Assembly: GCA_030619765.1 (NCBI GenBank)
Contig: JAUXAU010000010.1
Span: forward strand, 1-53,738
Origin: Thermoplasmatota archaeon
GTDB lineage: Archaea > Thermoplasmatota > E2 > DHVEG-1
DNA length: 53,738 bases
Direction of reading: 5' to 3'
In this document: positions 12,456 through 53,738 of the stretch, in pieces
How positions within the stretch are numbered: the stretch's first letter is position 1
Layout of the letters: the number at the start of each line of letters is the position of its first letter
Notes under the pieces: model-generated
What the model was told of the DNA's origin: nothing
Seen by the model: the letters and a program-made list of their open reading frames with translations, nothing else
Databases searched by the model: none
Made by a program: the position numbers and the translations under genes

Positions 12456-16623
<4,168 letters not shown>

Positions 16624-23280: not shown

Positions 23281-23430
23281 GGCTTTGCAACCCTGCAAGA
23301 CCCGTAATATACCACCCATATATAAAATAAGTTGATATTATCTATATATATTATAAAGAAATTTTTGGCAAACCTGTGAGAAAATACTAAAACAAAAACT
23401 CTATATCCTTGCCAAAGAAGGCTTGTTAAC

Positions 23431-35276: not shown

Positions 35277-35648
35277 TCATTTTTTTCGCTTCAAACCTAT
35301 ATACCTGGGTACTGTTGCTTTTGTTATTTCTGATAGTTTCCCTTCTGTAAATTGTTGGATAGCATCGTTTATTTTACCTTCTCCCCGATAAATCCTTATT
35401 CCACATTGTTCAAATGTTTCAAATGCAAATGGTCCAATATCGGTAGTTATAACAGCATCTATTTCTTCATTTGCGAGTATATTCCCGACTGTAACTCCCA
35501 CCCCACTTGGGCGGTCTCCTACTTTATTCACAATTACTTTTACTTCTTTGGTTTTTGTATCTACAATCAAGAAAAAAGGTGCTCTCCCAAATGTTGTGTC
35601 TATATTACTTTCTATATTTCTTCCAGTTGCACTTATTGCTATTTTCAT
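35277..35648 (-). CDS. NifX-type protein 3
   Basis: A third NifX/NifB-C-type protein (123 aa): MKIAISATGRNIESNIDTTFGRAPFFLIVD, then GVTVGNILANEEIDAVITTDIGPFAF. It lacks the His-rich tail of the second copy. It lies 31 bases downstream of the giant HdrA-GltD gene and could be co-transcribed, which links this family to the electron-transfer island as well as the ORP-like cluster. SD TAGGAGGC precedes its ATG. Confidence 0.88.
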   Translation of the reverse strand: MKIAISATGRNIESNIDTTFGRAPFFLIVDTKTKEVKVIVNKVGDRPSGVGVTVGNILANEEIDAVITTDIGPFAFETFEQCGIRIYRGEGKINDAIQQFTEGKLSEITKATVPRYIGLKRKK

Positions 35649-38600: not shown

Positions 38601-39546
38601 CCTGGAATTTACCTTCTTTTATGAGGGCAACATACCCTTGTGCATTTACACCTGCAGGACATGCATGAACACAAGGGGGCTCCCCAATTTTATCAATCGT
38701 AAATTTTTGCGGAACTGCCTGAGGAAATGGGATATAGATGGCCTTTCTATCACCTTGACCCATGTTAAACTCATCAGTTACATTAACAGGACAATCTTCA
38801 ACACACTCACCACACCCGGTGCATTTCTCTACATCGATATAGCGTGGTTTTTTACGAACTTTTACTTTGAAGTTACCAACATACCCATCGACATCCACAA
38901 CCTCTGAATAAGTTAGAAGATCAATGTTTTTATGTCTCCCTACGTCAACCATTTTAGGAGTTAAAATACAAGCAGAACAATCCATAGTTGGAAACGTTTT
39001 GTCAAGCTGAGCCATACGCCCGCCGATACTGGGTGTTTTCTCAACTAGGTATGTTTTAAATCCCATATCTCCAATATCAAGCGCGGCTTGTATACCTGCA
39101 ATTCCTCCACCAATTACCAAGGCTTTTGGTGTAACACCAACTGACTTTTTTTCAAGTGGTTGTAAAAGAGAAGCACGGACCACCGCCCCTTCAACTAAAG
39201 ATTTTGCCTTTTCTGTAGCTCCTTGTCTGTCCTTATGAACCCATGAACATTGCTCTCGTATGTTGACCATTTCAAGACAGTATGGGTTCAGTCCTGACTC
39301 CTCAAGCACTGCTCTAAATGTCGGCTCATGCATCCGAGGTGAACATGATGCAACAATAACACGATCCAGTTTCAGCTCTTTAATATCCTTTTTGATAAGT
39401 TCTTGCCCTGGGTCTGAACACATGTATTTATAAAAACGGGATACTGCTACATTTGGCAGAGATTTTGCATGTTCTGCTACTTTTTCAACATCAACTGTAG
39501 CTGCAATATTAACTCCACATTCACAAACATAAACACCTATCTTCAT
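35680..39546 (-). CDS. HdrA fused to a GltD-like NAD(P)H module with duplicated dinucleotide domain
   Basis: This 1288-aa protein has an HdrA N-terminus (residues 1-280: FAD motif VIGGGIAGIQAA at about 143, CSACIL at about 190, ferredoxin CTGCGECVEDC at about 242), then an inserted GltD/NfnB-like module (residues about 285-870). The insert begins with the Cys-rich helical domain PPCVHACPAGV and CGRICTHVCEENC, then AVIGAGPAGLTVAHDLA (FAD), and has two NAD(P)-binding repeats, AVIGGGNVAIDSVR (about 524) and AVVGGGNVAMDVAR (about 691). A ferredoxin (CLSCNICSLCRQCVESC, about 928-944) and the rest of HdrA follow, with two C-terminal [4Fe-4S] sites at about 1225-1270. It could connect NAD(P)H to the HdrA flavin. 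It overlaps the upstream hdrA by four bases. Confidence 0.93.
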   Translation of the reverse strand: MKIGVYVCECGVNIAATVDVEKVAEHAKSLPNVAVSRFYKYMCSDPGQELIKKDIKELKLDRVIVASCSPRMHEPTFRAVLEESGLNPYCLEMVNIREQCSWVHKDRQGATEKAKSLVEGAVVRASLLQPLEKKSVGVTPKALVIGGGIAGIQAALDIGDMGFKTYLVEKTPSIGGRMAQLDKTFPTMDCSACILTPKMVDVGRHKNIDLLTYSEVVDVDGYVGNFKVKVRKKPRYIDVEKCTGCGECVEDCPVNVTDEFNMGQGDRKAIYIPFPQAVPQKFTIDKIGEPPCVHACPAGVNAQGYVALIKEGKFQEALDLVRVNNPFPSVCGRICTHVCEENCNRNEVDEPVAVRALKRFIADYEKKHGRKIKKKKESEEEKELPGKGRKVAVIGAGPAGLTVAHDLASWGYKPTVFEALSKPGGMLRVGVPKYRLPEEILDYDIKRIEEDGVEIRTGTPIGPDLTLKDLMNAGYEAIFLAIGTHKSKRLGVEGEDLDGVIHAAGFLHDMGIGKKVDFKDKIVAVIGGGNVAIDSVRTAVRLGAKSAFVIYRRSRAEIPAKREELAECEKEGISFYYLAAPTRIIGRKGKVTGIECQRMKLGEPDDTGRRRPMPIEGSTFTLDADIVISAIGQMSVLTSLAETQVQVEVGKKNGVIPIATENLDLKGVYGFTAFLRALSTGKKIEIGKRIAVVGGGNVAMDVARSALRIGGKEIHVLCVESKDEMPAFKREIEEAIEEGIIIHTRRMPKRIIGTGGKAVGVETLKCTRVFDEDGKFDPEVEPNTEEILEADSVIVAIGQEVDYTLLKAADGVLVTKNGLLVVDGITQQTNIPGVFAAGDAVSGPGLVIQAIAKGHEASISIDRYLRGENLKKGRVKKEPIVAPLPEKEYEKLARVKLPTLPVEERIHNFEEVELEMTEEMAIKEAERCLSCNICSLCRQCVESCEADAICHDMEEKIVDLDVGAIVVATGFDLYDPTEKPEYGYGKYDNVITGLEFERIVSASGPTEGHIEINGKEPKKVVFIQCVGSRDKQSNEYCSRVCCMYTAKQAHMVRDKIPNSELIVYYTDVRAFGKGFEEFYNRVQGEDVTYRRRELADPIEVKKKGSKVVVKAKGHPDVEADLVVLATGIVPREDTKELTRLLNINQSADGFLLEAHPKLRPVDTFTDGIFLAGCCQSPKDVPDTVAQASGAASRVCNILSKKQLMIEATVANVDEELCRGCGFCVEACPYKAIELKEIDRFGNKVIVATVNEALCKGCGSCSAACLNGAISHLGFTDGQILAMIKALGK

Positions 39547-41489
39547 CGTATCAACCCCCCTATTTGAGCAAGAATCTGTTTAACATCATAATGTCTCATA
39601 GTAATTGCACCAGTAGGACAAGCCGAAGCACAAGATCCACAGCCTTTACACATGACATCATTTACTTTCATTATCTTATCTTTCTCATCAAACTCCAAGG
39701 CAGAGTAAACACACAGTTCTTCACATACTCTGCAGCCACTACATAGATCTTCATCTATTACTGCTGAGATTGCTTCAACGAAAACTTTACCTGCTGCAAG
39801 TGGTTCAGATGCTCTGACTGCTGCACCACTAGCTTGTGCAACAGCATCAGGAATATCTTTTGGACTTTGACAGCAACCAGCGAGGAAAATACCATCCGTG
39901 AAAGTATCCACAGGACGAAGCTTCGGATGAGCCTCCAATAGGAATCCATCAGCACTCTGATTAATATTTAAAATACGAGAAAATTCCTTAGAATCCTTTT
40001 TTGGAATTATAGCCGTAGCAAGTACTACCAAGTCAGCATCAACATCAGGATGACCCTTAGCTTTTACTACTACTTTGTTGCCGTTCTTTTTAACCTCAAT
40101 AGGATCATCAAGTTCACGACGTCTATAAATAACGCCTTCATCTTGTACTCTGTTATAGAATTCTTCGAAACCCTTACCGAAAGCTCTAACATCAGTATAA
40201 TAAACAATCAAATCAGCGTCAGGGATTTTATCCTTCACCATATGAGCCTGTTTTGCAGTATACATACAACACACGCGAGAACAATACTCATTACTCTCTT
40301 TATCTCTTGAACCAACACACTGAATGAAGACAACCTTCTTAGGCTCTTTACCATTTATTTCAATGTGACCTTCTGTTGGTCCAGAAGCAGATACTATTCG
40401 TTCAAACTCTAAACCAGTAATCACATTATCAAATTTCTCATAACCGTATTCTGGCTTTTCAACCGGATCAAAAAGATCATAGCCTGTTGCAACAACTATC
40501 GTTCCGACTTCAACCTCAACTATCTTTTCTTTCTGATTAAAGTTTATTGCATCTCTCTCACCACATGCTTCTACACAAAGTGCATGATCACCACATTTAC
40601 CGGTTTTAAGAGTTAAACAATTATTTGGATCTACAGTATATTTTAAGGGTACAGCCTGTGGGAAGGGAACATAGATAGCACTTCGTTTACCAATGCTCAT
40701 ATCAAACTCATTTGGAATTCTGGCATGAAGTCTACAAGCCTCTGCACAAGCTCCACAACCTACACATTTTTCAATATCTACATATCGTGGTTTCTTTTTT
40801 ATTTTTACTTTAAAATTACCAATATATCCATCAACACTTTCTATTTCTGAATATGTAAAAAGCTCGATATTTGGATGACGTGCTGCATCAACCATTTTAG
40901 GAGTTAAAATACAAGCTGAGCAATCAAGCGTTGGAAACGTCTTATCAAGCTGTGCCATACGTCCACCAATACTTGGGTTGCGTTCTACAAGATACACCTG
41001 GAAACCCTTCTCCGCGATTTCCAATGCAGCCTGAATACCAGAAATGCCACCACCAACAACAAGTGCTCTTGGAATAACACTTACTTCTTTTTTTTCAAGA
41101 GGTTCTAAATACGTTGCCCTAGCGACAGCTCCAGCGATCATATACATGGCTTTTGCTGTTGCTTTATCTTTATCTATATGAACCCATGAACATTGTTCTC
41201 TTATGTTTACCATTTCAAAATAGTATGGATTCATCCCCATTTCTTCAAGAACTGCTCTAAAAGTTGGCTCATGCATCCGAGGTGAACACGAGGCAACAAC
41301 AACACGGTCAAGTTTCAACTCTTTAATGTCCTTTTTTATTAGCTCTTGCCCGGGATCAGAACACATATATTTATAAAAACGGGATACTGCTACATTTTGC
41401 AGAGTTTTTGCATATTCAACTACTTTTTCAACATCCACGGTAGCAGCGATGTTGATCCCACATTGACAAATATAAACTCCAATTTTCAT
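39543..41489 (-). CDS. hdrA: Heterodisulfide reductase subunit A (HdrA)
   Basis: The 648-aa protein is the canonical flavin hub of Hdr complexes and the presumed site of electron bifurcation. It has an N-terminal Cys-containing domain (ICQCGINIAATVD), FAD motif VVGGGISGIQAALEI (about residues 143-157), CSACILTPKM (about 191-200) and an internal ferredoxin (CVGCGACAEAC), a partner-facing cluster (CGDHALCVEAC), and a C-terminal 2[4Fe-4S] ferredoxin (CSGCRVCEELC, CKGCGSCASAC). It sits directly after the FlxA-like gene and shares long stretches with the HdrA part of the following fusion, an obvious tandem duplication. Confidence 0.95.
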   Translation of the reverse strand: MKIGVYICQCGINIAATVDVEKVVEYAKTLQNVAVSRFYKYMCSDPGQELIKKDIKELKLDRVVVASCSPRMHEPTFRAVLEEMGMNPYYFEMVNIREQCSWVHIDKDKATAKAMYMIAGAVARATYLEPLEKKEVSVIPRALVVGGGISGIQAALEIAEKGFQVYLVERNPSIGGRMAQLDKTFPTLDCSACILTPKMVDAARHPNIELFTYSEIESVDGYIGNFKVKIKKKPRYVDIEKCVGCGACAEACRLHARIPNEFDMSIGKRSAIYVPFPQAVPLKYTVDPNNCLTLKTGKCGDHALCVEACGERDAINFNQKEKIVEVEVGTIVVATGYDLFDPVEKPEYGYEKFDNVITGLEFERIVSASGPTEGHIEINGKEPKKVVFIQCVGSRDKESNEYCSRVCCMYTAKQAHMVKDKIPDADLIVYYTDVRAFGKGFEEFYNRVQDEGVIYRRRELDDPIEVKKNGNKVVVKAKGHPDVDADLVVLATAIIPKKDSKEFSRILNINQSADGFLLEAHPKLRPVDTFTDGIFLAGCCQSPKDIPDAVAQASGAAVRASEPLAAGKVFVEAISAVIDEDLCSGCRVCEELCVYSALEFDEKDKIMKVNDVMCKGCGSCASACPTGAITMRHYDVKQILAQIGGLIR

Positions 41490-41507
41490 ATTAACATCCC
41501 AATCCCA

Positions 41508-42347
41508 TTATCTTTCTCCTTGGAGGCTTTTCAATTGTTTATATGAAAACACCGGTCCATCTTTACATACGTAAAGATTACCAATGTTACACCGCCCACA
41601 TTTACCTATTCCACATTTCATTCTCATTTCAAGGGTTGTAAATATTTGATCCTCAGTAAACCCCAGTTTTTCTAGGTTTTGAATAACAAATTTAATCATA
41701 ATCGGTGGACCACACGTAATTGCAATAGTGTTCTTTGGCGAAGGTTTAACCCTTAACAGATTAGTTGGTACGAAACCTACGAATTTCTTCCATCCATCCT
41801 CTTCCACATCTACCGAGAGATGAACGTTTACATCTTTACGTTTCTCCAGTTCAGCAAATTCCTGTTTGTAACTAAGATCCTTGGATGAACGTGCACCGTA
41901 AATAACGTCTAATTTACCATAGTTTCTCCTGTTATCCACTACATAGTTGATAAGGGAACGTAGTGGCGCCTGTCCGATACCACCGCCAATGAAAACCAGG
42001 TTTTTACCCTGCCAACCTTTTACATCAAAATAGTTCCCATAAGGACCTCTTACTCCCACCACATCACCCAGTTCACATTCATGTAAGGCCGATGTCACCT
42101 TACCAAGTTTCATGACGCTTACTTCAATGTAATCTTTTTTAGTTGGAGAAGACGAAATCGCAAAGAAACATTCTCCTTTACCAAGCAAACTTACCATTGC
42201 ACATTGACCGGGTAAATAGGTAAAATTGTTCTGAATGTTTTTATCTTGAAATACTAGTTTAAACGTTTTAATAGCTCTTTCACCTCCTACTTCTTCTTTA
42301 ATGTCATCAATTGTTGCAAGCCATGGTTGATAAGGATTATTATTCAT
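41508..42347 (-). CDS. FlxA-like FAD/NAD(P)-binding oxidoreductase subunit
   Basis: The 279-aa product is a ferredoxin-NADP-reductase-family protein of the sulfhydrogenase-gamma/FlxA kind: FAD site FAISSSPTKKDYIEVSV, NAD(P)-binding FIGGGIGQAPLRSLI and a C-terminal [2Fe-2S] motif CGIGKCGRCNIGNLYVC. In FlxABCD-HdrABC this subunit oxidises NADH or accepts electrons. The order flxD-flxC-flxB-flxA-hdrA (transcription direction) matches that complex in sulfate reducers. It overlaps the FlxB-like gene by four bases. Confidence 0.88.
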   Translation of the reverse strand: MNNNPYQPWLATIDDIKEEVGGERAIKTFKLVFQDKNIQNNFTYLPGQCAMVSLLGKGECFFAISSSPTKKDYIEVSVMKLGKVTSALHECELGDVVGVRGPYGNYFDVKGWQGKNLVFIGGGIGQAPLRSLINYVVDNRRNYGKLDVIYGARSSKDLSYKQEFAELEKRKDVNVHLSVDVEEDGWKKFVGFVPTNLLRVKPSPKNTIAITCGPPIMIKFVIQNLEKLGFTEDQIFTTLEMRMKCGIGKCGRCNIGNLYVCKDGPVFSYKQLKSLQGER

Positions 42348-43369
42348 GGTTTCACCTCCCCTGCCCTTGTGACTACATCGATTATATCAATATTCACAGG
42401 GCAACTATCAATACATCGGCCACATCCTACACATGCGATAACTTCAAAGTTTTTCGGATAATAATTATACTTATGATAAACACGATTCCGTACTCGATTC
42501 ATCCTTGCAGGTCTTGGATTATAACCAGAAGCTTGTAAAGTGTACTCAGAAATCATACATGTATCCCAAATACGTACTCTACCACCATCGGTCATGGTAG
42601 TTTCATCCTGGATGTCGAAACAATGACACGTTGGACAAAGATATGTACAAGTTCCGCATCCCAGGCATTTATTAGCAACTGTCTCCCAAAACGGGTTTTC
42701 AAAGATTTTATCAAGCTTCTCAGTAATACCATCTATCTTCTGAAAACGAGTAATAATATCTTTGGCTTTTTTTTCAACTTCTTTTTTCTTTTTACCATCT
42801 GCTTCAGTTGCAGATTTAAACAACTTATTCATAGTTTTTACAAGCTGTTTACCCTTGTCACTGTTTACTTCAACAAAGTATTTATCACCAATGTCTGTGA
42901 GTAAAATATCAACAAATTCTGGAGATGCAGGACTATCATTAAATGAGGTGCAGAAACAATTTAAACATGGCTGAGTACAGCTAAGTCCAACTAGAATTGT
43001 ATTTTTCCTCTTCGTCAGATAATATGGATCCTCAAAATCACCCTTGAATACACGATCAAGAATAGCTAGGCTTTTAGCATCACATGGTCTTATTCCAAAA
43101 ACAGTTCTACCCCCATTATCAAAATCTACCGGATGAATTTTTCCCTTTGTGCCAGGTGTAAACTTAAACAACGTCTCAGTTTGACAAAACAGAAGGTTTT
43201 TCGGTGGCACCTTAGAATTAGTAAATTCTAGATTTATTTCTTTAGGGTTTTTAATCTGTTTAAATAACGTTACATTATTATCATTCACAGGTGCAAATAC
43301 CTTATATTTACCTATCATTTCACTAACAAACTTGGAAAGGTTGTCCTTGGGTAAAACATATTTATCCAT
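42344..43369 (-). CDS. FlxB-like iron-sulfur subunit (sulfhydrogenase-beta type)
   Basis: The 341-aa protein has FGIRPCDAKSLAILD, a Cys-rich PCLNCFC segment and a C-terminal 2[4Fe-4S] ferredoxin with CLGCGTCTYLCPTC and CVGCGRCIDSCPV. This resembles HydB of archaeal sulfhydrogenase and FlxB, which passes electrons between the NAD(P)-binding FlxA-like subunit and other subunits. A GAGGCG SD precedes ATG 43369. It probably forms a complex with the FlxA-like protein, with which it overlaps by four bases. Confidence 0.85.
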   Translation of the reverse strand: MDKYVLPKDNLSKFVSEMIGKYKVFAPVNDNNVTLFKQIKNPKEINLEFTNSKVPPKNLLFCQTETLFKFTPGTKGKIHPVDFDNGGRTVFGIRPCDAKSLAILDRVFKGDFEDPYYLTKRKNTILVGLSCTQPCLNCFCTSFNDSPASPEFVDILLTDIGDKYFVEVNSDKGKQLVKTMNKLFKSATEADGKKKKEVEKKAKDIITRFQKIDGITEKLDKIFENPFWETVANKCLGCGTCTYLCPTCHCFDIQDETTMTDGGRVRIWDTCMISEYTLQASGYNPRPARMNRVRNRVYHKYNYYPKNFEVIACVGCGRCIDSCPVNIDIIDVVTRAGEVKP

Positions 43370-43381
43370 CTTTTCGCCTCC

Positions 43382-44365
43382 TCATAGTATGAACTCCTCC
43401 GGATCATCAGGTTTAAACATTGCAAGTAATGGTTTTTCCTCTGCGTCTATCCCAGATGTGTAATCATACATTTCTTTGATATCTTTCTCAATTTTTTTAT
43501 TCAACTTCATGAGGGGAAGATCCATTGGACATACTCGTTCACATTCACCACAGCCAATGCACCGGCCTGCAAGATGAAAAGCACGTAACAGGTTCCAAGC
43601 TGTGTTCTCTGAGAGATTCACAGAACGACGGATCCATTGAGGATCCAATAGATCTACCATGCATTCCTTGCAGTAACACAGAGGGCAGGCATCTCGACAT
43701 GCGTAGCAGCGAATGCAGCGTTCGAATTGTTTCTCCCAGTAATCCCATTTATCCTCTAATGATTTTTTCTCCAGAGGCTCAATTTCTTTGTAGTCTTCTT
43801 TCTTCGTACTTTTAATTTCTTTACCAATAAGAATGTCATATAGTACTGGAGCTGGGTATTCACAGTGTTTGCATTTCTCAGCTAGAAGTTCATCTTTGGA
43901 AATCTTATGGATTTTTCCATCAATAGTTATCACAAATTTTTCATTTTCTTCTTTTACATCCACGTTTTTCATTTGACCTGGGAATTTTTCTTTGATCTTT
44001 TTTGGATCAATAACACCGGTACATGGTATCCCAATTATGACTACATCTTCGCGTTTCAGCCCTTTTTCCTGAATGATTTGTACTATTGCTCTAGAGTCAC
44101 ATCCTTTTACAACTAGTCCGATTTTACGGGTATCTGGTTCTTCACCCTTCCGCAGAGGTGGTTTATCCTCAAGCATAGGATAAACTGCGAGATTGTTTAC
44201 ACAAAGTGGGGAGAAAATGAATTTATCAGCATCCCCTGGGGTAAATGCAAATGTTGGACTTACCAAAAATCCACTGGTGCCTTTTTCATATCCCACCACG
44301 TATTTTACATCATCTCTGCTTATTGTTTTTTTCACTGCATCACGTAGTTGTTTTTCATCTACCAT
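43382..44365 (-). CDS. FlxC-like FrhB/FdhB-related iron-sulfur subunit
   Basis: The 327-aa product shows an FrhB-like N-terminal part (LVVKGCDSRAIVQIIQE, IGIPCTGVIDPKK, CKHCEYPAPV) and a C-terminal ferredoxin-like region (CIRCYACRDACPLCYCKEC, then CIGCGECERVCPMD). FrhB-family proteins bind FAD or Fe-S and can hand over electrons to F420, NAD or ferredoxin; the FlxC counterpart has this layout. The start ATG lies within the end of the MvhD/FlxD-like gene. A cofactor F420 role cannot be excluded. Confidence 0.8.
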   Translation of the reverse strand: MVDEKQLRDAVKKTISRDDVKYVVGYEKGTSGFLVSPTFAFTPGDADKFIFSPLCVNNLAVYPMLEDKPPLRKGEEPDTRKIGLVVKGCDSRAIVQIIQEKGLKREDVVIIGIPCTGVIDPKKIKEKFPGQMKNVDVKEENEKFVITIDGKIHKISKDELLAEKCKHCEYPAPVLYDILIGKEIKSTKKEDYKEIEPLEKKSLEDKWDYWEKQFERCIRCYACRDACPLCYCKECMVDLLDPQWIRRSVNLSENTAWNLLRAFHLAGRCIGCGECERVCPMDLPLMKLNKKIEKDIKEMYDYTSGIDAEEKPLLAMFKPDDPEEFIL

Positions 44366-44787
44366 TTATTCTCCCTCCTGAAATGCTGCATTGGTCCTAG
44401 TTCCCGTATGTCCTCGGTGACTTCTTTGACTACTTCCGCGAATTTTTTTCCCTCAGATGCTGATACCCATGTCATTCTAACCCTTCGTGGGTCGATACCG
44501 GTATACTCTAGTAGTTTTTTCAAAACAGCCATTCGGCGCCGTGCCAGGTAGTTTCCACGTTCATAGTGACAATCACCTGGATGACAGCCACCTATGAGTA
44601 CACCATCTGCGCCTTGTTGCAGAGCGTTTATTACAAATATTGGATTTACTCTCCCGGAACACATCACTCTGATGGCTTTCAAATTTGGCGGGTATTGAAT
44701 TCTACTTGTACCAGCTAGATCTGCACCAGCGTAGGAACACCAGTTGCATAAAAAACCTATAATGTTTGGTTCGAACTTTTCCTTCAT
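44359..44787 (-). CDS. MvhD/FlxD-like [2Fe-2S] adaptor protein
   Basis: The 142-aa product contains CNWC in NIIGFLCNWCSYAGADL, MCSGRV and GCHPGDCHY, the five-cysteine pattern of MvhD, which links hydrogenase or other dehydrogenases to HdrA. A GGAGG at the end of the upstream gene, 8-9 bases before ATG 44787, identifies that start rather than the TTG at 44802. It is very similar to the MvhD 3 kb away. Position next to the FlxC-like gene suits FlxD. Confidence 0.92.
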   Translation of the reverse strand: MKEKFEPNIIGFLCNWCSYAGADLAGTSRIQYPPNLKAIRVMCSGRVNPIFVINALQQGADGVLIGGCHPGDCHYERGNYLARRRMAVLKKLLEYTGIDPRRVRMTWVSASEGKKFAEVVKEVTEDIRELGPMQHFRRENKW

Positions 44788-44791
44788 ACCT

Positions 44792-45802
44792 TTAGCCTCC
44801 AATTACCTTACTTACATTCATTTTTTTAATCGGACCCATTTTTTCAAGTTCTTTAACAAAATCATCAATTGTGCGTTCAAGTTTTGCTGATTCGCCTGTC
44901 GAGAACCATTCTAGTCTGATTCTTTTTGGTTCAATGTTGAGTTCTTTGAGAACATTTTTAAGAAGCACTAGTCGTCTTCTTGTTTTGTAGTTTCCATCAT
45001 GGTCACATTCCTCTGGTGGGCAACCGGCAACCATTACACCCCACGCACCTTCATCAAAAGCATTTAGTACTAATTCTGGTGCAACTCGGCCAGAGCACAT
45101 ACTAACTATTACTCCATAAGGTGTTTTAATTAAGGTTGGTGATTCACTTAGTTGCATTCCAGGAAATAGCGACCAGTTACATGCAAAAACAATAAGCTTC
45201 TTTTCACCCTCACTTAGAATTTCTTTGACTTTTTCATGAAGCTCTGGGAGAGTTATCTCACATCCTTCTTTTTGAGAAATCGCTCCAGAGGGACAGGCTG
45301 CTACACAAAGCCCACAGCCTCTACATTCAACTTTATCAACAACTATTTTTTTGTTATCTTCATCTTTTTCATCAATCGATAAAGCCTCATATTTACAGAG
45401 TGGAACACATATTCCACAGACACTGCATAGATCCTCGTCAATTTTTACAATGGTTCCTTCGACTTCAAATCCTGCTTCTATGAGGTCTGCTTTTGCATCA
45501 GTTAAAATATCAGTAACAGGTACACCTGCTGAACAATTGTCACTACAGTTTTTGCAATAAAAACATTGGAATATTTTCTCAACAATTTCCTGAGTAGGTT
45601 TTATTTCACCTGTGATCATTCCATAAATAAGTAGTAGTTTTCCTCTTGGTGTATCTGATTCCCAATTATTGGATTTAAACAAGGGGCAAAGCTCGTAACA
45701 GTATCCACATCGTATGCATTTGTTTAGTTCTTGTTCCCATTCCTTTGATCTTTTAAAATTCCCGTTCGATTTAAAATAAAATAATTTACCTAATATTCCC
45801 AT
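44792..45802 (-). CDS. Fusion: HdrC/GlpC-like dicluster, ferredoxin and MvhD domains
   Basis: The 336-aa protein has three parts: an HdrC/GlpC-N-like dicluster region (CIRCGYCYELCPLF and CFYCKNCSDNCSAG, about residues 29-95), a 2[4Fe-4S] ferredoxin (CSVCGICVPLC, CRGCGLCVAAC, about 125-175), and a C-terminal MvhD domain (CNWS in place of CNWC, MCSGRV, GCPPEECDHD). The partial loss of one MvhD cysteine (CNWS) is visible. It starts right at the stop codon of the GlcD-type gene. I infer that it carries electrons from the flavin dehydrogenase to HdrA through its own MvhD module. Confidence 0.88.
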   Translation of the reverse strand: MGILGKLFYFKSNGNFKRSKEWEQELNKCIRCGYCYELCPLFKSNNWESDTPRGKLLLIYGMITGEIKPTQEIVEKIFQCFYCKNCSDNCSAGVPVTDILTDAKADLIEAGFEVEGTIVKIDEDLCSVCGICVPLCKYEALSIDEKDEDNKKIVVDKVECRGCGLCVAACPSGAISQKEGCEITLPELHEKVKEILSEGEKKLIVFACNWSLFPGMQLSESPTLIKTPYGVIVSMCSGRVAPELVLNAFDEGAWGVMVAGCPPEECDHDGNYKTRRRLVLLKNVLKELNIEPKRIRLEWFSTGESAKLERTIDDFVKELEKMGPIKKMNVSKVIGG

Positions 45803-47230
45803 TTATCCCACCTTGTATCTAAGATTTGTAGCTTTCACCCAATCATCTGGTGCATCCATGATTTTATGTGGATTCAAAATATTGTTTGGATCAAGTGCTT
45901 TTTTTACTTTTCTCATCACTGGTATCATATCAGGTCTTGCTTTCTTCCACGCTGGCGCCTTAGACAATCCTATGCCATGCTCAGCAGAGGTTACACCACC
46001 AACAGAATCGATGTAATCATATAGCTCTTCGATTACATGTTCTGCATCTTTCCATTGGCTTTTCTTTTTTGGATCAAGCATAATTTTTGTGTGAATTACT
46101 CCAGATCCGCAATGGCCATATACTGCCATTATCACATTGTTTTTCTTAGCGATCTCATGGATTTTTTCTGCAGTTTCCGCAATCTTTGAATTTGGAACAC
46201 CCATATCATCTGCAAGGTCAGTGCAGATAATTCATTCTTTGTATTGTGAGAGTGAAGCGAATAGTTTTTTTCTTCCACTGAATAATTTAGTTCTTTCTAC
46301 TAGATCATAGCTCTTTTTGATATCTTTACCATTATGTTTTTTACAAATCTTCTTCATTTTTTCTATTTCAAAGTCTACTGCTTCTTTGACGTTTCCATCT
46401 GCTTCAAAAAGAATAATTGCTCCTACCTCTTTAAGCCCAAGATCCATTGCTTTGTTTACAGCAATAATTCCAATTTTATCCATTAATTCTAACATTGAAG
46501 GTTCGCAACCACTAGAAATAATGTCAGAAATCGCATTGCCTGCATCCTGGAGCTTATCAAAATTTGCGACAGCTAGACACCTATATTTTGGAAGAGGTCT
46601 AATTCCCATTGTTGCTTCGACAACAACACCTAGGGTGCCTTCTGATCCAACAATGAGTCTTTCAAGCTGGTAACCAGATGAATGAACACGGGTGTTACTT
46701 CCAAGATTAACCAAGTCTCCATTTGCAAGTACAACTTTCATACCATATACATAATCTCGAGTAGCACCATATTTTACAGATCGGACACCTGATGCGTTAG
46801 CAGCAATTTCACCACCAATTGTTGCAATTCTACTAGATGCAGGAGCAGGTGGATAAAATAGACCTAATGGTTTTAGAGCACGATTAAGATCGTCATCAAC
46901 AACACCTGGTTCAACCTTTATAAGCATATCCTCGGGTCGAATATCAAGAATACGGTTCATTTGTTTCATATCGAGAACAATACCGCCATCTATGGGAACA
47001 GTATGACCTGATGTTCCAGATCCAGCACCACGGGGAACAACAGGAATTTTGTTAGCATTAGCATATCTCATAATTTTTTGGACTTCCTCAATTGTTTTTG
47101 GCCGTACAACAGCAGTTGGTAATGCATGATGAACTGAAGCATCAGAAGCATAAACATAGAGATCAGCGATGTCATCTGAAACGTTATTTGCTCCAACTAT
47201 TTTTTTCAATTTCTCTATATCTATTTTCAT
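45803..47230 (-). pseudogene. GlcD/D-lactate-dehydrogenase-type FAD oxidase with in-frame TGA at codon 333
   Basis: The intact reading frame spans 476 codons, as in GlcD/DLD. The N-terminal part is an FAD-binding PCMH domain (VPRGAGSGTSGH, IGGEIAANASGVRSVKYG, LIVGSEGTLGVV). Codon 333 (46234-46232) is TGA, after LFASLSQYKE, and the same frame continues as IICTDLADDMGVPNSK to the catalytic C-terminal part, with YGHCGSGVIH and SAEHGIGLSK intact. There is no frameshift. A single-base change (GGA to TGA) or sequencing error is the simplest cause. A 3'-UTR SECIS is unlikely, since the next gene starts directly after the stop. Typical substrates are D-lactate, glycolate or other 2-hydroxyacids. It starts within the MvhD gene's end (ATGA overlap). 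Confidence 0.75.
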
Positions 47231-47649
47231 GCTTTCACTTCTTTCAATGGACTTGGCCCCATTTTTTTAAGTTCATCTACAAACTCAGTAACAACTGAGG
47301 CAAATTTAGCGCCCTCAGAAGCAGAAATGTACTCAAATCTTACTCGTCCAGGGTCAACCGCCATATCCTCAAGGAGTTTTTTTAAAAGCTTCATTCTCCT
47401 ATTGGCCTTGTAATTACCAGACTGATAATGACAATCCCCTGGGTGACATCCTGCTACAAGAACACCATCTGCGCCTTTTCTTAATGCCTCCAAAACAAAT
47501 ACAGGATCAACACGTCCTGAACACATAACACGTATTGATTTTATATTTGGAGGATATTTCATCCTACTAGTACCAGCAAGATCTGCACCTGCATATGAGC
47601 ACCAGTTGCATAAGAAACCTATAATATTTGGTTCAAATTCTTTTCCCAT
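47227..47649 (-). CDS. mvhD: MvhD [2Fe-2S] adaptor subunit of the hydrogenase-Hdr complex
   Basis: The 140-aa product has FEPNIIGFLCNWC, MCSGRVDPVFVLEALRKG and GCHPGDCHYQSGNYKANRR. It follows the hydrogenase genes and maturation protease, so it is the likely MvhD connecting [NiFe] hydrogenase to HdrA. Its C-terminal end overlaps the start of the GlcD-like gene by four bases. Confidence 0.93.
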   Translation of the reverse strand: MGKEFEPNIIGFLCNWCSYAGADLAGTSRMKYPPNIKSIRVMCSGRVDPVFVLEALRKGADGVLVAGCHPGDCHYQSGNYKANRRMKLLKKLLEDMAVDPGRVRFEYISASEGAKFASVVTEFVDELKKMGPSPLKEVKA

Positions 47650-47664
47650 TTCTTCACCTCAAAT

Positions 47665-48138
47665 TTAGTTGTTCATATCTTTTTTAATTTCATTAAGAGC
47701 TATCTCAACGGCTTTTGGTACAGCCGCAGCAACCTTTTCACTTAATTTTTCTCCAAATTCACATGGCAGTTTTTTCATCATTATTCCAATGATGATGATT
47801 TCTTTGGGAATTCTTGTTTCTCCAAGTTTTTTTGCCATTTGAATAGCCTCAGTCAGTGATACATCATGTGGATTACATGAGTGCATAGTAGAGAAATCGC
47901 CTAGAGGGATTCTTTTCACCTCTCCTTCTTCTCCATCATCTGTCGTCTTGATCGCATCAATTATTATTGCTTTGTCATAGCCTAAGAGCAGATCTAGTAG
48001 ATTCATACCTCCTGTGAGGGCTTCATCGATTGTGATGTTTGGATTATTTATATGTTGTTTTAGTTGGTTTACAACATGTATTCCAACTCCATCATCAGAT
48101 AGAATCGGGTTTCCAACTCCTAGGACTACGGTTTTCAT
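47665..48138 (-). CDS. [NiFe]-hydrogenase maturation endopeptidase
   Basis: The 157-aa HycI/HyaD-family protease cleaves the C-terminal tail of the large subunit after nickel insertion. It starts MKTVVLGVGNPILSDDGVGI with the conserved Gly-Asn and Asp (nickel-binding), and has a second nickel-ligand region around DAIKTTDDGEEG and HSCNPHDVSLTEA. It lies next to the large subunit, whose 26-residue C-terminal tail after the last cysteine box is its substrate. Confidence 0.92.
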   Translation of the reverse strand: MKTVVLGVGNPILSDDGVGIHVVNQLKQHINNPNITIDEALTGGMNLLDLLLGYDKAIIIDAIKTTDDGEEGEVKRIPLGDFSTMHSCNPHDVSLTEAIQMAKKLGETRIPKEIIIIGIMMKKLPCEFGEKLSEKVAAAVPKAVEIALNEIKKDMNN

Positions 48139-48151
48139 TTTTTGTTTTCCT

Positions 48152-49609
48152 CTAGTTTTGTCTCAAAGTTTTGTACAGTTTCCTGTTATGGTCATATATG
48201 TTTACTTCTAGTGGCATGCCACCCGGTAGGGTATGTGTTGCACAAGCGAAACACGGATCATATGCGCGGAATGCCATCTCCACCATATTCAACAATCCAT
48301 CGTTGACCTTTCCTTTTTTTATAATCCCTTTTGCTGCGTCTCTTACTGACATGTTGATAGCACCCGCATTGTTTGTCGTTGCAACAATAAGATTAGCTTT
48401 ATCGATAAGTCCATTTTTATCAAGCTTGTAATGATGAATAAGTGTTCCACGAGCTGCTTCAGTTACGCCAAATCCTTCACCGGGTTCACCAACAGGGTTT
48501 CTGATTTTTGTTGAAGTAATTTCAGGGTCTTTAATGAGTTCCATTGCTCGTTCTGTTGCATAAAGGAGTTCTATTAATCGTGCCCAGTGGAAGGCAAGTG
48601 TAGTGTTAACTGCTTTACCACCAAGTGTTTCATAAAACCGTTTGTATTCTTTATCTGCAAGTGGCGTAGCCATACCCTCTGCAGCGTTCAAACGTCCGAG
48701 TGGGCCGACACGGTAGATTCCACTGTCTTTGCCGTCCTTAAAGCCTTTCCATCCAATATCTTTCAGATAGGTAAACTTGATATAGCTCCATTCTTCAACG
48801 TGTTCAGCGATTTTTTTGTAGTAGTCTTTTACATCAAATTTCACATATTCCTTTCCTTTTTGATCAGTTACCCGTATTTTTCCATCATAGAAATTTACTT
48901 TGTTGTTTTTGTCAACTAAACCCATATTATATGTCGCTAGAGTATATGCATCACTAAGAATCAAATCAAGGTAATCCTTGTTCTTTAATACTATATCATC
49001 AAAAAGTTTTAATGAAAATTTTGCAAATTCTACACAGGATTTACCCATTGTTTCAATTTCTTTTACCTCATCTTTATTAAGTCCTTTTGATACGCCACCA
49101 GGCAATCCACATACTGGATGTGTTGCTTTCCCACCAAGTATGCCAGTGATTTTCTGGCCATATGCTCGATGTTTGATGACTTCTTTACCGACCTCAAGAC
49201 CTGCTTTTTCAATAACGCCAAGCACATTACGTTTAGCTGCTGGTGCATCAGGTCCAACGACAAAATCAGGTCCACCAAGATAATAGAAATGAAGAATGTG
49301 GTCATAGATGAAATACCCACAGTACATTAGTTCCCTGAGTTTTTTTGCAGCAGGTGGCGGATCAACATTGAACGCATCATCAAGTGCTTTTGTTGCGGCA
49401 AAATGATGTGCTACAGGACAGACACCACAGATACGACTTGTAATCTGAGGCATATCCTCTGCACGTCGTCCCTGACAGAATCGTTCGAAACCACGCAATT
49501 CAGGGATTTGAAGATATGCATTTTCAACATCACCTTTTGAGTCAAGGAATATACTAATCTTTCCATGTCCTTCAAGTCTTGTTATTGGATCAATTGTTAT
49601 TGTTTTCAT
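48152..49609 (-). CDS. mvhA: Group 3c-type [NiFe] hydrogenase large subunit (MvhA-like)
   Basis: The 485-aa product has the L1 motif RICGVCPVAHH (Cys61, Cys64) and L2 motif DPCFACATH (Cys453, Cys456) that hold the NiFe(CN)2CO site. The 26 residues after His459 would be removed by the protease encoded downstream. The set with small subunit, MvhD and HdrABC matches group 3c hydrogenases, which reduce ferredoxin and a heterodisulfide-like acceptor with H2 by bifurcation. Selenocysteine is not present at the L2 motif. Four-base overlap with the small subunit. Confidence 0.95.
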   Translation of the reverse strand: MKTITIDPITRLEGHGKISIFLDSKGDVENAYLQIPELRGFERFCQGRRAEDMPQITSRICGVCPVAHHFAATKALDDAFNVDPPPAAKKLRELMYCGYFIYDHILHFYYLGGPDFVVGPDAPAAKRNVLGVIEKAGLEVGKEVIKHRAYGQKITGILGGKATHPVCGLPGGVSKGLNKDEVKEIETMGKSCVEFAKFSLKLFDDIVLKNKDYLDLILSDAYTLATYNMGLVDKNNKVNFYDGKIRVTDQKGKEYVKFDVKDYYKKIAEHVEEWSYIKFTYLKDIGWKGFKDGKDSGIYRVGPLGRLNAAEGMATPLADKEYKRFYETLGGKAVNTTLAFHWARLIELLYATERAMELIKDPEITSTKIRNPVGEPGEGFGVTEAARGTLIHHYKLDKNGLIDKANLIVATTNNAGAINMSVRDAAKGIIKKGKVNDGLLNMVEMAFRAYDPCFACATHTLPGGMPLEVNIYDHNRKLYKTLRQN

Positions 49610-50607
49610 TTCATCACCTTCCTATTTATTAAAGCAGCTGGCAAACCATATTTATAAAAGGTTCCAACTGGGTCTACAACCTGATTTATTAATTCTTCAA
49701 CTTCTTCATCGCTCATTTTTTCCTCCCCTTCAATACCAAGGATAGATGCAAGTGCAGACATCATCTTAGCACCCTGATCAAGAGAATTCGGCGTAGGACC
49801 ACCACAACCGGTACATGGCATGTTAGCATCTAAACATCGTGCCTCACATCCTCCGCGTGTAGCAGGCCCCATACATATGATGCCTTGTTCAAGGAGACAC
49901 TTATCTTCGAGTTTGTCAATCTCATATATCCGTTTTATCTCCTTGATCTTCTTCTCTGATTTTTCAAAACGACACTCATCACACACTGATTTCAACGGGC
50001 CAATAACCGAGCCTTTAGGTGGTAGCTTGTTTTCAACGATAGCACCCACCGCAGTCATGATAAGATCAGGTGTTGGAGGACATCCTGGTAAATAATAATC
50101 AACATCAACTGTTTGATCCAATGTTTTAACAGTGTCATAAAACTCAGGAAGTGTAAGAGTACCCTCTTTAACCTTAACTGAGGTTTTTGGAACCGTCTTT
50201 TTTGGATTATCCGTAGAAGGATTATTCAGATACGATACATTAAACACTTCTTCCTTATTTGCAATGTTCGCCAAACCCGGGATACCACCATTACATGCAC
50301 AAGCACCAAATGCCACAAGCACCTTTGATTTCTTACGAAGTAGCTTTGCTATGTGTTCCTGCTCAGACGTACGAATAGAACCATTGAAAAAACAAACATC
50401 AATATGGTTATCCTTCATCGCTTCAACATCTTTATATTTAAAATCCATTGCAACTGGCCAAAACAGTATATCTGCAACTGCTACAACGTCTAGGATTTTT
50501 TCATCAATATCTAAAACAGCTATTTCACATCCACCACAACTTGCAGCCCAATAAAACGCAAGTTGCAGTTTTTTCTTTTTTCCGGTTTCTTTTTTCTCCT
50601 TATTCAT
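49606..50607 (-). CDS. mvhG: [NiFe] hydrogenase small subunit (MvhG-like)
   Basis: The 333-aa product carries the proximal cluster motif WAASCGGCE (Cys24, Cys27), further cluster cysteines in GACACNGG and YLPGCPPTPD, and a Cys-rich C-terminal part (CDECRF, CMGPATRGGCEARCLDANMPC) for medial and distal clusters. No Tat signal is present, so the enzyme is cytoplasmic, as expected for group 3. The N-terminal 15 residues are Lys-rich. Confidence 0.94.
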   Translation of the reverse strand: MNKEKKETGKKKKLQLAFYWAASCGGCEIAVLDIDEKILDVVAVADILFWPVAMDFKYKDVEAMKDNHIDVCFFNGSIRTSEQEHIAKLLRKKSKVLVAFGACACNGGIPGLANIANKEEVFNVSYLNNPSTDNPKKTVPKTSVKVKEGTLTLPEFYDTVKTLDQTVDVDYYLPGCPPTPDLIMTAVGAIVENKLPPKGSVIGPLKSVCDECRFEKSEKKIKEIKRIYEIDKLEDKCLLEQGIICMGPATRGGCEARCLDANMPCTGCGGPTPNSLDQGAKMMSALASILGIEGEEKMSDEEVEELINQVVDPVGTFYKYGLPAALINRKVMK

Positions 50608-50638
50608 ACAATCACCATTTTATTAATTTTTAACTTTT

Positions 50639-51520
50639 TTATTTTTCAAATACCCCCTTCTTCTTTAACAACAGGGTTGGGTCTACAGCGTGATCATCAA
50701 ACCCGCAATATTCAGGATCCAAACCCAATGCAACAGCTATAAGCTGAGTGTAGTAGTAAACAGGGACTTGTTTATAACTCTTGTATATTTTTTCAGCTTC
50801 TTTTCCCCGCACATCAAGATTAAATCGGCAAAGAGGACAAGAAAGAACAATTGCATCACTTCCACTTTCAATCGCAAAATTAGTAATTCTATATGCCCTG
50901 TTCATTACCAATTCTTTTTGTTGAATTGTGTGATAAGATCCGCAACATTCAATTTTAAAAGGATTATCAATAGCTTCTGCGCCAAGTGCGTTTAAAAGGT
51001 CTTTTAATATTGTTGGCTCTTCTGCATCATCAATAGCTACTTCACGAGGCCGAAGCAACATACACCCATAATAAGGCATAATTTTTACGCCTTTCAATGG
51101 ATTTTTCACCATTTTTTTCAGAACATCAAAACCCACTTCGTCTCTGAGAAACTCTAGGAAATGAACCACTTTTACAGTTCCTTTGTAATCGTTTTCCCTA
51201 TCCATAAATAAGTTGAGTGTTTCTAAATCATCAGGTTTTTCTTTTACACGCAAATTTGTTTGCTTGAGAGTATTATAGCACATATCACAAAGTGTAATAA
51301 CTTGTTCGTCACCCGCGTCTTCTACATGTATTAAATTTCGTAATGGTGCAAGATGATGCATCAGATCATCATCTGTAAGAGATGAAACTACTCCACAACA
51401 GGTCCAGTCTTCCATTTCTACCATTTCATGACCTAGCTTTTCCATTATTGCAAATGCAGATTTTTCTAGGTTTTTTGCAGATGTTTTAAGGGTACACCCA
51501 GGGTAGTATGATAGTTTCAT
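50639..51520 (-). CDS. hdrB: Heterodisulfide reductase subunit B (HdrB)
   Basis: The 293-aa protein has two CCG domains that bind noncubane [4Fe-4S] clusters: YYPGCTLKTSAKN, then WTCCGVVSSL and CDMCYNTL; YGCMLLRP, then ECCGSYHT and SCPLCRFNL. This is the catalytic subunit that would reduce a disulfide in methanogens. Here no methanogenesis gene is present, so the disulfide or acceptor is unknown. It lies between HdrC and the hydrogenase small subunit genes. Confidence 0.94.
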   Translation of the reverse strand: MKLSYYPGCTLKTSAKNLEKSAFAIMEKLGHEMVEMEDWTCCGVVSSLTDDDLMHHLAPLRNLIHVEDAGDEQVITLCDMCYNTLKQTNLRVKEKPDDLETLNLFMDRENDYKGTVKVVHFLEFLRDEVGFDVLKKMVKNPLKGVKIMPYYGCMLLRPREVAIDDAEEPTILKDLLNALGAEAIDNPFKIECCGSYHTIQQKELVMNRAYRITNFAIESGSDAIVLSCPLCRFNLDVRGKEAEKIYKSYKQVPVYYYTQLIAVALGLDPEYCGFDDHAVDPTLLLKKKGVFEK

Positions 51521-51579
51521 AGTTTTACCTTTTTTTTAACTCCATTTTTCATGCATTTTCATATATATTTTTGTATATC

Positions 51580-52005
51580 TTAACCTATATTTTTTCTAAA
51601 TAAACTTACAAACGCTATTTGAGGTATTGTCTCCTTTTCATCTTTAGATATTTCTGTCAGATTTGTTCTGTCAATTTTTTTCCGTAAAATTATCTGACGT
51701 AGAGCCTCCATTATTTTAGTAATGTTAATATCACGCGGGCATCTCTCAGCACAAGTAAAGCACGCTGCACAAAGCCATATTGTCTTTGAATTAAAAACTT
51801 CTTTTCTATCTAGTATTATATATCTAATTACTTCGTCTGGTGAAAGATCCATATCTTCAATAAAAGGACAACCTGCAGAACATGTTCCGCATTGATAACA
51901 ACCAAAGAGGTTTTCACCACAGAGTTCTTCAACTTCTTTGGCAAGATCTCCTTTTTTTAGTTTCAATGCTTCAATGTCGACATTGCCCTCTAGTTTTTTG
52001 GTCAT
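51580..52005 (-). CDS. hdrC: Heterodisulfide reductase subunit C (HdrC)
   Basis: The 141-aa protein contains two [4Fe-4S] sites, CYQCGTCSAGCP and CAACFTCAERCP, the HdrC pattern that relays electrons from HdrA to HdrB. It overlaps the hdrA-like gene upstream by four bases and is separated by 59 AT-rich bases from hdrB. Confidence 0.93.
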   Translation of the reverse strand: MTKKLEGNVDIEALKLKKGDLAKEVEELCGENLFGCYQCGTCSAGCPFIEDMDLSPDEVIRYIILDRKEVFNSKTIWLCAACFTCAERCPRDINITKIMEALRQIILRKKIDRTNLTEISKDEKETIPQIAFVSLFRKNIG

Positions 52006-53738
52006 TTAGCCACCTCTTTTTCACAGAGAGCAGCGATCATTACATTGATCTGATTACTCTTGTATCCTTTCTGTTCAATAGCGCTTGATAGACATGCAGC
52101 TGCACATGAACCGCAGCCTTTACAAAGAGCCCTATTTACTTCTGCTACAAGGCGAGTTGGATCCTTTGGATGTGGTTTCATTTCTATTGCTGAATAAGCA
52201 CATGCTGATTCACATAAGCCGCAGCCTCGGCAGAGATCCTCGTTTACCTCTGAAACGATGCCCTCTCCTTTCATTCTTTCCTGCATAATGGGTATTGCTG
52301 CACGTGAAGCAGCACCCTCTGCCTGAGCGATTGAATCGACTAAATTCTTAGGATAGTGTGCCGCACCACACATATAAATACCAGATGTGGAAAAATCAAG
52401 AGGTTTAATTTTTGCATGGGCTTCTATAAAGAAACCAGCGGAATCAACAGGGACTTTTAGCATGCTTTTCAGTTTCTCAGTCATGGCCCCGCCTTCAGTG
52501 TTAACAGTTAAAACCAATAGATCTGCTGGAATTGTCATTTCTTCATTGAGGAGGTCATCATAAACTTTCACAGATACAGATCCATCTTTGGGATTATTTT
52601 TATCAAGGGTTACCTCGGGTTTCTTTTCACCAGGATAGCGAATCATTGTTACATGATAATCCTTTAAAACATTCGCATAGTATTCCTCTTCTTCTTTTCC
52701 AAAAACTCTCATATCACGGTAAAGCATGTAAATCTTAGATTTTGGGTACTTTTGACTAATAAGTTTAGCATTTTTTATGGAAACGCCACAACCAACTCTA
52801 CAGCAATATGGTCGTTCCTCATCCATTGCACCTGCACAATTTATTATAACAACGTTCTTTGGTTCTTTAAGATCATTATTTTTTAGTTTTGTTTCTAACT
52901 CTGTTTGAGAAATAATATTCTTATTTTTACCGCTCTGATATTTACCTTTTAGATCAATCTCACGGAAGCCAGTTGCTACTATTATTGTTCCAAACTCAAT
53001 CTCTTTGGTCTTACCTTTTTGTTTTATTTTTCCTTTATAGTTGCCAATGTATCCTTCAAGCTCATCAAGCTCTGATTCAATCATAACAGTGATTAACTTG
53101 TCCTTCTTGACTTTGTTAATCAATGGATTAAGAATATCCTCAGTTTTTGTATCAGACGGAAACATTGAATGAAGATTTGTTAGCCGTCCGCCAAGTTCTT
53201 TTTCTTTTTCTATGGTAATAGATTTAATACCCATATCTGCAAGTGCAAGTGCTGCTTTCATACCTGAAACTCCGCCACCAATGACTAGGGTACTTGGATA
53301 AACCGAGAACTCTTCCTCAGAGAGTGATTCAAGGCCTCTTGCCTTTGCAACTGATGATCTTACTAAAGCTATTGCTTTTTTTGTTGCTGCATCCCAATTA
53401 TCTGAGTGAACCCAGGAGCATTGATTACGTATATTTGCCATTTCAAAAAGATACTTGTTAAGCCCTGCTTCCATAAGAGTATCCTGGAAAAGACCACCAT
53501 GCGTTCGAGGTGAACAAGCAGCAACAATTACTCTATTCAAGTTCTTCTCTTTAACAGCTTCTTTAATTTTTTTACAACTATCCTCAGAGCAAACAAACAT
53601 TATATGATCTGCATGATCAACATTTGGCAGCTTCTTAGTCTCCTCTGTTACTTTTTCTACGTCAAGATAGCTTGCAATATTTTTACCACAATGACAAACA
53701 AATACACCTATACGTGGTTTCTCACCTGTAACATCACG
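52002..53738 (-). CDS. HdrA-like flavoprotein, 5' end beyond the window, lacking the inner cysteine box
   Basis: The frame is open to the window edge (578 codons) and continues upstream (VFVCHCGKN gives the HdrA N-terminal Cys motif). It has FAD motif VIGGGVSGMKAALAL and C-terminal 2[4Fe-4S] (CRGCGLCESAC, CKGCGSCAAAC). Unlike the two other HdrA proteins, the segment after GGRLTNLHSMFPS has no CSACI box and no inserted ferredoxin; it moves straight to FGTIIVATGF. So the cluster nearest the FAD and one ferredoxin are missing. It leads the hdrACB-mvhGA operon, so this may be the HdrA of the hydrogenase complex. Confidence 0.85.
   Translation of the reverse strand, partial: RDVTGEKPRIGVFVCHCGKNIASYLDVEKVTEETKKLPNVDHADHIMFVCSEDSCKKIKEAVKEKNLNRVIVAACSPRTHGGLFQDTLMEAGLNKYLFEMANIRNQCSWVHSDNWDAATKKAIALVRSSVAKARGLESLSEEEFSVYPSTLVIGGGVSGMKAALALADMGIKSITIEKEKELGGRLTNLHSMFPSDTKTEDILNPLINKVKKDKLITVMIESELDELEGYIGNYKGKIKQKGKTKEIEFGTIIVATGFREIDLKGKYQSGKNKNIISQTELETKLKNNDLKEPKNVVIINCAGAMDEERPYCCRVGCGVSIKNAKLISQKYPKSKIYMLYRDMRVFGKEEEEYYANVLKDYHVTMIRYPGEKKPEVTLDKNNPKDGSVSVKVYDDLLNEEMTIPADLLVLTVNTEGGAMTEKLKSMLKVPVDSAGFFIEAHAKIKPLDFSTSGIYMCGAAHYPKNLVDSIAQAEGAASRAAIPIMQERMKGEGIVSEVNEDLCRGCGLCESACAYSAIEMKPHPKDPTRLVAEVNRALCKGCGSCAAACLSSAIEQKGYKSNQINVMIAALCEKEVAK

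Follow-up and report, generated by a model that had tools for sequence, protein, structure and literature searches.

A 53,738-nucleotide window, the entire contig JAUXAU010000010.1 (C115 below) of the Thermoplasmatota archaeon assembly GCA_030619765.1, carries on its minus strand a long run of genes for heterodisulfide reductase (Hdr)-type proteins, a [NiFe] hydrogenase, Flx-like proteins and a GlcD-type FAD dehydrogenase. We propose, with a probability of roughly 0.48, that this single same-strand run is the electron hub of a reversible tricarboxylic acid (TCA) cycle, in which malate would be handled by a nickel racemase and GlcD with no NAD-linked malate dehydrogenase. A more specific version is possible but is put forward only tentatively. 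It holds that the TCA cycle has no pyridine-nucleotide malate dehydrogenase, that a nickel-pincer racemase acts on L-malate, and that HdrA confurcates malate and reduced ferredoxin to H2 or NAD(P)H. In the opposite direction, the heterodisulfide's role as high-potential acceptor of Hdr bifurcation would fall to oxaloacetate, and the cycle's redox steps and hydrogen metabolism would all pass through one multi-HdrA machine. We infer the substrate, the formation of complexes and the direction of flow from gene content, gene order, conservation, motifs and failed searches.

The run extends from 53738 to 35277 and comprises 16 genes joined by 15 junctions with gaps of -11 to +59 nt, counting GlcD as a single gene across its in-frame stop. 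In transcription order it encodes HdrA, HdrC, HdrB, VhuG, VhuA, HycI, MvhD, GlcD, an HdrC:ferredoxin:MvhD fusion, FlxD, FlxC, FlxB, FlxA, a second HdrA and an HdrA:GltD protein, and it ends with a NifX-like gene. Every module named by the first-pass annotation was found on the minus strand in the order it gave. The island that it placed at 39543..53738 is real but was drawn too short, as the run reaches 35277 and crosses the contig end. Among the ten related loci of our genome scan, four (L007, L009, L010 and L012) keep the full gene order; cut or masked parts of the run are found in L006, L008 and L011, and L013-L015 have differing layouts. Tight junctions and the order kept in relatives show that the clustering is beyond chance. 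The assembly (3.17 Mb in 134 contigs, 88.8% complete) has a TFIIB gene on this same contig, and the closest loci to the island belong to metagenome-assembled genomes (MAGs) of Thermoplasmata, including SG8-52-3 and M9B1D.

The window end shares an overlap of exactly 141 nt with contig C124 from this assembly, which carries, at its own end, the absent N-terminal half of the first HdrA. Upstream on the same strand C124 encodes a 254-aa Fe-S protein (TfrB-like), a 548-aa flavoprotein (TfrA-like) and KorA, KorB and KorC, while SucCD is divergent from these genes. In the relative G021 the Tfr-like and Kor genes and the island are contiguous on one contig (L033, L007), with SucCD adjoining. The 2-oxoacid:ferredoxin oxidoreductase KorABC in the same gene run bears out the link to ferredoxin-dependent carboxylation suggested earlier. 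A promoter is possible between the TfrA-like gene and KorA, since a gap of 265 nt separates them. In a Dehalococcoidia locus HdrC-HdrB is directly followed by homologues of the fumarate-reductase-like pair, and the pair that heads the run is a candidate acceptor for HdrB.

The hydrogenase and Hdr modules resemble HdrABC-MvhAGD of methanogens in having VhuA and VhuG, MvhD, HdrA, HdrB and HdrC with intact motifs, and in a type I HdrA similar to 5odc_A. In contrast to that system, the present run has a double HdrA, added Flx and GlcD modules and TCA cycle genes, and mcr was not found in the assembly. The FlxD-C-B-A-like row followed by HdrA recalls FlxABCD-HdrABC, reportedly an NADH module of anaerobic bacteria; here, HdrB and HdrC instead lie upstream, past the hydrogenase and GlcD, and the assembly yielded no DsrC. 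As the first reading of the sequence had it, each of the three donor modules has one MvhD-type protein, and the idea of several redox modules sharing HdrA-type flavoproteins is supported. The expected lack of methanogenesis genes agrees with the genome search, in which neither mcr nor DsrC was found in this 88.8% complete assembly, coenzyme M and coenzyme B (CoM/CoB) synthesis not being searched. DsrC and CoM/CoB were provisionally set aside as partners of HdrB, as no DsrC and no mcr were found at this level of completeness.

Three HdrA proteins with a total of four HdrA flavin domains are encoded; the number first proposed stands, with the amendment that the first protein is double. Because its N-terminal half lies on C124 and its homologue in L007 is a 1072-aa protein with two HdrA flavin (thioredoxin-reductase-like) domains, the first HdrA is a type II double HdrA, as defined in the accessible part of PMC12054007. 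All three types of that scheme (I, II and III) occur here in one run. Each of the four flavin domains retains equivalents of the E356/K409 pair, which the same part of PMC12054007 proposes as a mark of bifurcating HdrA. In the double HdrA, the C-terminal half has neither the flavin-domain Cys pair nor the inserted ferredoxin domain, so a ferredoxin outlet of the known kind would be limited to the other, N-terminal half. In the type III HdrA, the inserted ferredoxin domain is itself split by GltD, which separates the domain's two cluster motifs. GltD contains two GGGNVA motifs for NAD(P) binding (residues 527 and 694), both also present in L007. A test for GXGXXG found GXGXXA instead, twice. 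By the rule given in the consulted sections of PMC12054007, these motifs appear NADP-like, in contrast to the NAD-type GXGXXG motif of nine type III proteins described there in a survey of mcr-bearing archaea. A duplication of the nucleotide-binding domain within the GltD insert is possible.

Among solved structures, GlcD is closest to LctD (7qh2_C), part of a lactate dehydrogenase (NAD+, ferredoxin) complex, with a glycolate oxidase and the mammalian D-lactate dehydrogenase also near. At E <= 1e-120, GlcD occurs in 53 of 389 genomes of the phylum, and 17 of these proteins form a close group scoring at least 540 bits, with the next best at 460.5. The adaptor encoded after GlcD combines three domains, namely an HdrC/GlcF-like dicluster, an HdrA-type C-terminal ferredoxin and an MvhD domain; the fused form was found in 8 of the 80 class genomes. 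In the adaptor's MvhD domain CxxS stands at the site where the hydrogenase and Flx MvhD proteins have CxxC. Across 120 adaptor homologues the motif is CxxS in 100, CxxA in one and CxxC in none (19 were unmatched by the pattern). The predicted structure of the adaptor has a mean pLDDT of 63.2, mostly below 50 in the ferredoxin part, and only the MvhD part gave significant structure matches: four chains at E <= 0.001, all from Hdr complexes.

The window's GlcD contains one in-frame TGA, past which both the reading frame and the homology continue, as would suit a selenoprotein with selenocysteine at this site; a frameshift was ruled out by the frame kept across the stop. Selenocysteine was rejected and has a negligible probability: a glycine codon occupies the site in all ten related loci and glycine in all 120 homologues (the best 120 of 1304), SepSecS was not found in the genome search, and no tRNA-Sec scored above the gathering threshold. 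What this assembly shows at the site is a point variant, an erroneous base or a recent pseudogene; a full-length, intact GlcD with 99.2% identity exists in public data (P0144).

To characterize GlcD neighbourhoods we compared 20 loci of the clade (the window, L006-L015 and L070-L078) with 23 loci of other archaeal GlcDs. Neighbours were counted within 7 kb because 20 of the 23 control flanks reach at most ~7 kb. Of the Hdr and hydrogenase genes only VhuA and HdrB were counted, since the ferredoxin domain of the adaptor itself cross-matches HdrA and accounts for the apparent HdrA distances of ~50-200 nt. VhuA or HdrB lies within this distance of GlcD in 17 of 20 clade loci versus none of the 23 controls; the three clade loci without them (L008, L011 and L014) are all masked or short. 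LarA or fumarase is similarly close in 6 of 20 clade loci and in no control. For instance, L013 has the order PycB-GlcD-fusion-LarA-fumarase-HdrC-HdrB-TfrB-TfrA-fumarase, L076 has MvhD-GlcD-fumarase, and L015 combines GlcD, the adaptor as two genes, VhuGA, LarA, aconitase and citrate synthase. In L073-L075, from three same-family relatives, the gene after GlcD encodes a GlcF-like CCG protein in place of the adaptor, with HdrC and HdrB next. The GlcD-adaptor pair was also observed in Dehalococcoidia/Chloroflexota MAGs (L013, L014) at 51-56% identity, which suggests a transfer between domains.

These neighbourhoods bear on whether the modules share electrons at all. The hydrogenase-Hdr, Flx-Hdr, GlcD and Tfr/Kor genes could instead encode separate complexes, merely co-regulated as a central-metabolism cluster. 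The three HdrA proteins could serve one complex each, and in L013-L015 Flx is missing beside the GlcD-adaptor pair, which has different partners. We nevertheless consider this arrangement decidedly improbable, as the adaptor itself fuses HdrC-like, HdrA-type ferredoxin and MvhD domains and VhuA or HdrB accompanies this GlcD in 17 of 20 loci.

If the proposed hub operates, fumarase would yield L-malate, a LarAH6-like racemase would convert it to D-malate, and GlcD would oxidize D-malate to oxaloacetate; the electrons would reach an HdrA flavin by way of the fused HdrC-ferredoxin-MvhD adaptor. With plentiful H2 the system would reverse, and electrons from H2 or NAD(P)H would be bifurcated to oxaloacetate and to ferredoxin; an alternative acceptor could be fumarate, reached through HdrB-HdrC and the TfrA-like pair. 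Ferredoxin reduced in this mode would serve reductive carboxylation.

The energetics were estimated for both directions. Redox potentials other than those of the two hydroxyacid couples were general background values. Malate/oxaloacetate lies at -170 mV and lactate/pyruvate at -190 mV according to the accessible part of PMC5861303. Malate as a bifurcation donor to fumarate and ferredoxin gives +25.1 kJ/mol with ferredoxin at -500 mV and +9.6 kJ/mol at -420 mV, and to heterodisulfide, taken at -140 mV, +57.9 kJ/mol. The revision of the heterodisulfide potential to -281 mV, as cited in the part of PMC12054007 seen, makes the donor case worse. Malate with reduced ferredoxin gives +9.6 to -5.8 kJ/mol towards NADH and +0.2 to -15.2 kJ/mol towards H2 at 10 Pa, and the reverse direction with H2 at 1 bar gives -30.5 to -45.9 kJ/mol; the direction would follow H2 pressure. 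Because bifurcation starting from malate, near -170 mV, runs uphill, the hydroxyacid, and GlcD with it, more likely belongs on the high-potential side, as in LctBCD.

This result divides the model of the first-pass annotation, in which H2, NAD(P)H and the hydroxyacid are interchangeable mid-potential donors, each with its own MvhD, and the acceptors are an HdrB disulfide and ferredoxin. H2 and NAD(P)H indeed look like mid-potential ports, but the hydroxyacid does not fit as an equal donor, being uphill; malate and fumarate, both predicted, look like high-potential ports. The model agrees with the three MvhD-type proteins, one in each module, and with both CCG motifs kept in HdrB. In two related loci a lipoate-protein-ligase-type gene lies between the GlcF-like CCG gene and HdrC (L071:10976-12025 and L075:11004-12086), a hint that HdrB may have a lipoyl disulfide as its partner at those loci. 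Apart from the uphill donor, the deviating MvhD domain of the adaptor (CxxS), the relatives that have a GlcF-like CCG protein with HdrC-HdrB instead, and the failure to find mcr and DsrC all speak against it, and as a whole it seems quite improbable.

For the proposed malate hub, the system with the closest likeness is Ldh-EtfAB/LctBCD of Acetobacterium woodii, which likewise contains a GlcD-family flavoprotein. There, a hydroxyacid near -190 mV is driven by reduced ferredoxin, as described in the available portion of PMC5861303. The present run differs in having HdrA and the fused HdrC-ferredoxin-MvhD adaptor in place of Etf, and racemases that are malate-type by best model; no Etf-type domain was found among the 16 island genes. 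In A. woodii a LarA-type racemase presumably lies near LctBCD. The same confurcating wiring could operate with lactate (or glycolate or 2-hydroxyglutarate) as an Hdr-based counterpart of LctBCD. We regard this alternative as unlikely. The nearest solved GlcD relatives act on lactate or glycolate, the lactate/pyruvate potential suits the same energetics, and the active-site residues single out no dicarboxylate. On the other hand, malate racemase is the best-fitting model for the racemases close to this GlcD, whose neighbours are fumarase, aconitase, PycB and Tfr genes. LarAH6 is the best model for all nine racemases examined (the window's and eight others), by 47-87 bits. The specificity residues Q293 and K351, reported for the malate racemase Mar2 in the accessible text of PMC7583248, have counterparts in eight of the nine, including that of the window.

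The TCA cycle genes of the window, with LarA, also follow the island in G021 (L034). Markers of a reductive TCA cycle are present as ATP-citrate lyase and 2-oxoacid:ferredoxin oxidoreductase. ATP-citrate lyase is encoded at 11178-14350 of the window, and its citrate-binding domain was also found in G040 and G037, which are apparently SG8-52-3 and M9B1D. For these two, PMC6461988 stated that aclAB was not found, a statement that our result revises for these archaea. The malate dehydrogenase families PF02866 and PF02615 occur in 4 and 3 of 80 class genomes, respectively, and in none of the 11 that have this GlcD, where malic enzyme and Mqo were not searched.

Several observations weigh against the malate hub. 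All nine racemases score below the curated LarAH6 cut-off of 500 (372.6 bits for the window's; 348-394 for full-length ones, except L077 at 329). The flavoprotein homologue in L033, 95% identical to that of C124, has TfrA as its best model at 316.9 bits versus a cut-off of 718. The GlcD active site gives no clear dicarboxylate sign: Lys at the Asn443 position of D2HGDH, tried as such a sign, is shared by all 20 clade loci and all 23 controls, and Phe stands at the Thr390 position in each of the 20 clade loci (K401 was compared by eye only and was not used as evidence). Within this family, mouse LDHD does not use D-malate, although human D2HGDH does, according to the part of PMC10589216 consulted. 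One control GlcD has PycB nearby and another a Tfr homologue, and the window's own GlcD carries the stop. LarA, present in 63 of 80 class genomes, does not track the island and was dropped as a correlate. In the 11 class genomes with this GlcD, it lies 13-33 kb from GlcD in five, 115 kb away in one and on another contig in three, and was not found in two. Malate dehydrogenase is rare across the whole class, so its absence is a weak argument as an island-specific trait, and malic enzyme, Mqo and citrate synthase were never searched beside it. ATP-citrate lyase, present in 45 of 80 class genomes and in 10 of the 11 that have this GlcD, was rejected as an unspecific correlate.

Known associations of Hdr with TCA cycle genes include Culexarchaeia, with SdhA beside HdrA2B2C2 (accessible part of PMC9723716), and Ca. 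A. pyornia, with hdrA near fumarase, succinate dehydrogenase and SucCD genes (accessible part of PMC8671834). The first resembles the present case in succinate/fumarate-type genes near Hdr and the second in TCA genes near Hdr. In contrast to both, KorABC, hydrogenase, Flx and GlcD occur here together; in those same parts, no malate link is proposed for Culexarchaeia, and malic enzyme is present in Ca. A. pyornia. Among the matches listed in the open-access literature, none dealt with a malate-linked Hdr or with malate confurcation. Should the proposed hub prove correct, a couple from central metabolism, malate/oxaloacetate, can occupy the high-potential side of Hdr-based bifurcation, and in anaerobic archaea for which no malate dehydrogenase is recognised, a reversible TCA cycle would be linked to H2. 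The question of HdrB/HdrA acceptors outside methanogens then becomes one of direct enzyme assays.

Table 1. Annotated features of the window, with positions, strand and basis or remark.
Feature	Position	Strand	Remark
C-terminal half of type II (double) HdrA	52002..53738	-	5' part on C124
HdrC	51580..52005	-	domain match
HdrB, two complete CCG cysteine motifs	50639..51520	-	domain and motif
[NiFe] hydrogenase small subunit, VhuG-like	49606..50607	-	domain match
[NiFe] hydrogenase large subunit, VhuA-like	48152..49609	-	L1 (RICGVC) and L2 (DPCFACATH) intact
HycI-type hydrogenase maturation protease	47665..48138	-	domain match
MvhD of hydrogenase module	47227..47649	-	domain match
GlcD-type FAD dehydrogenase	45803..47230	-	one in-frame TGA, 46232-46234; relatives intact
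Adaptor, HdrC/GlcF-like : HdrA-type ferredoxin : MvhD fusion	44792..45802	-	GlcD module
FlxD (MvhD-type)	44359..44802	-	domain match
FlxC-like Fe-S protein	43382..44365	-	FrhB_FdhB_C domain
FlxB-like Fe-S protein	42344..43369	-	ShyB/HydB-like
FlxA-like FAD/NAD(P)H-binding protein	41508..42347	-	domain match
Type I HdrA	39543..41489	-	end-to-end alignment with 5odc_A, 789.8 bits
Type III HdrA with GltD insert	35680..39546	-	two GGGNVA Rossmann motifs
NifX/FeMo-co-binding-like protein, last of run	35277..35648	-	domain match
GlcF-like CCG protein	30523..31584	+	homologue directly after GlcD in L070-L075 and L077
Two-subunit fumarase (two genes)	23431..24828	+	domain matches
PEPCK-like protein	21358..23319	-	domain match
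LarA-type nickel racemase	19841..21088	+	best model malate racemase LarAH6, below cut-off
Aconitase, two-subunit ATP-citrate lyase, monomeric isocitrate dehydrogenase	9213..16623	+	domain matches

Other genes of the window and the genome were noted alongside these features. Beside LarA, at 17055-19815 on the minus strand, are a GlpA-like gene (DAO and BFD domains) and a pyridine-nucleotide-disulfide oxidoreductase-like gene, also found in L034. A plus-strand cluster at 25337-30056 encodes DUF5320, Mrp/NBP35-type and MinD-ferredoxin ATPase proteins, and the NifX-like gene at 35277 may belong with it. A second Hdr locus of the same genome (L037, G000:C7:15000-34900) contains biotin-dependent carboxylase genes, HdrC, HdrB, HdrA and a 1529-aa HdrA/GltD-type protein, together with MvhD, an FrhB-like protein, a 1026-aa double-HdrA-like protein and a TfrA-like flavoprotein.

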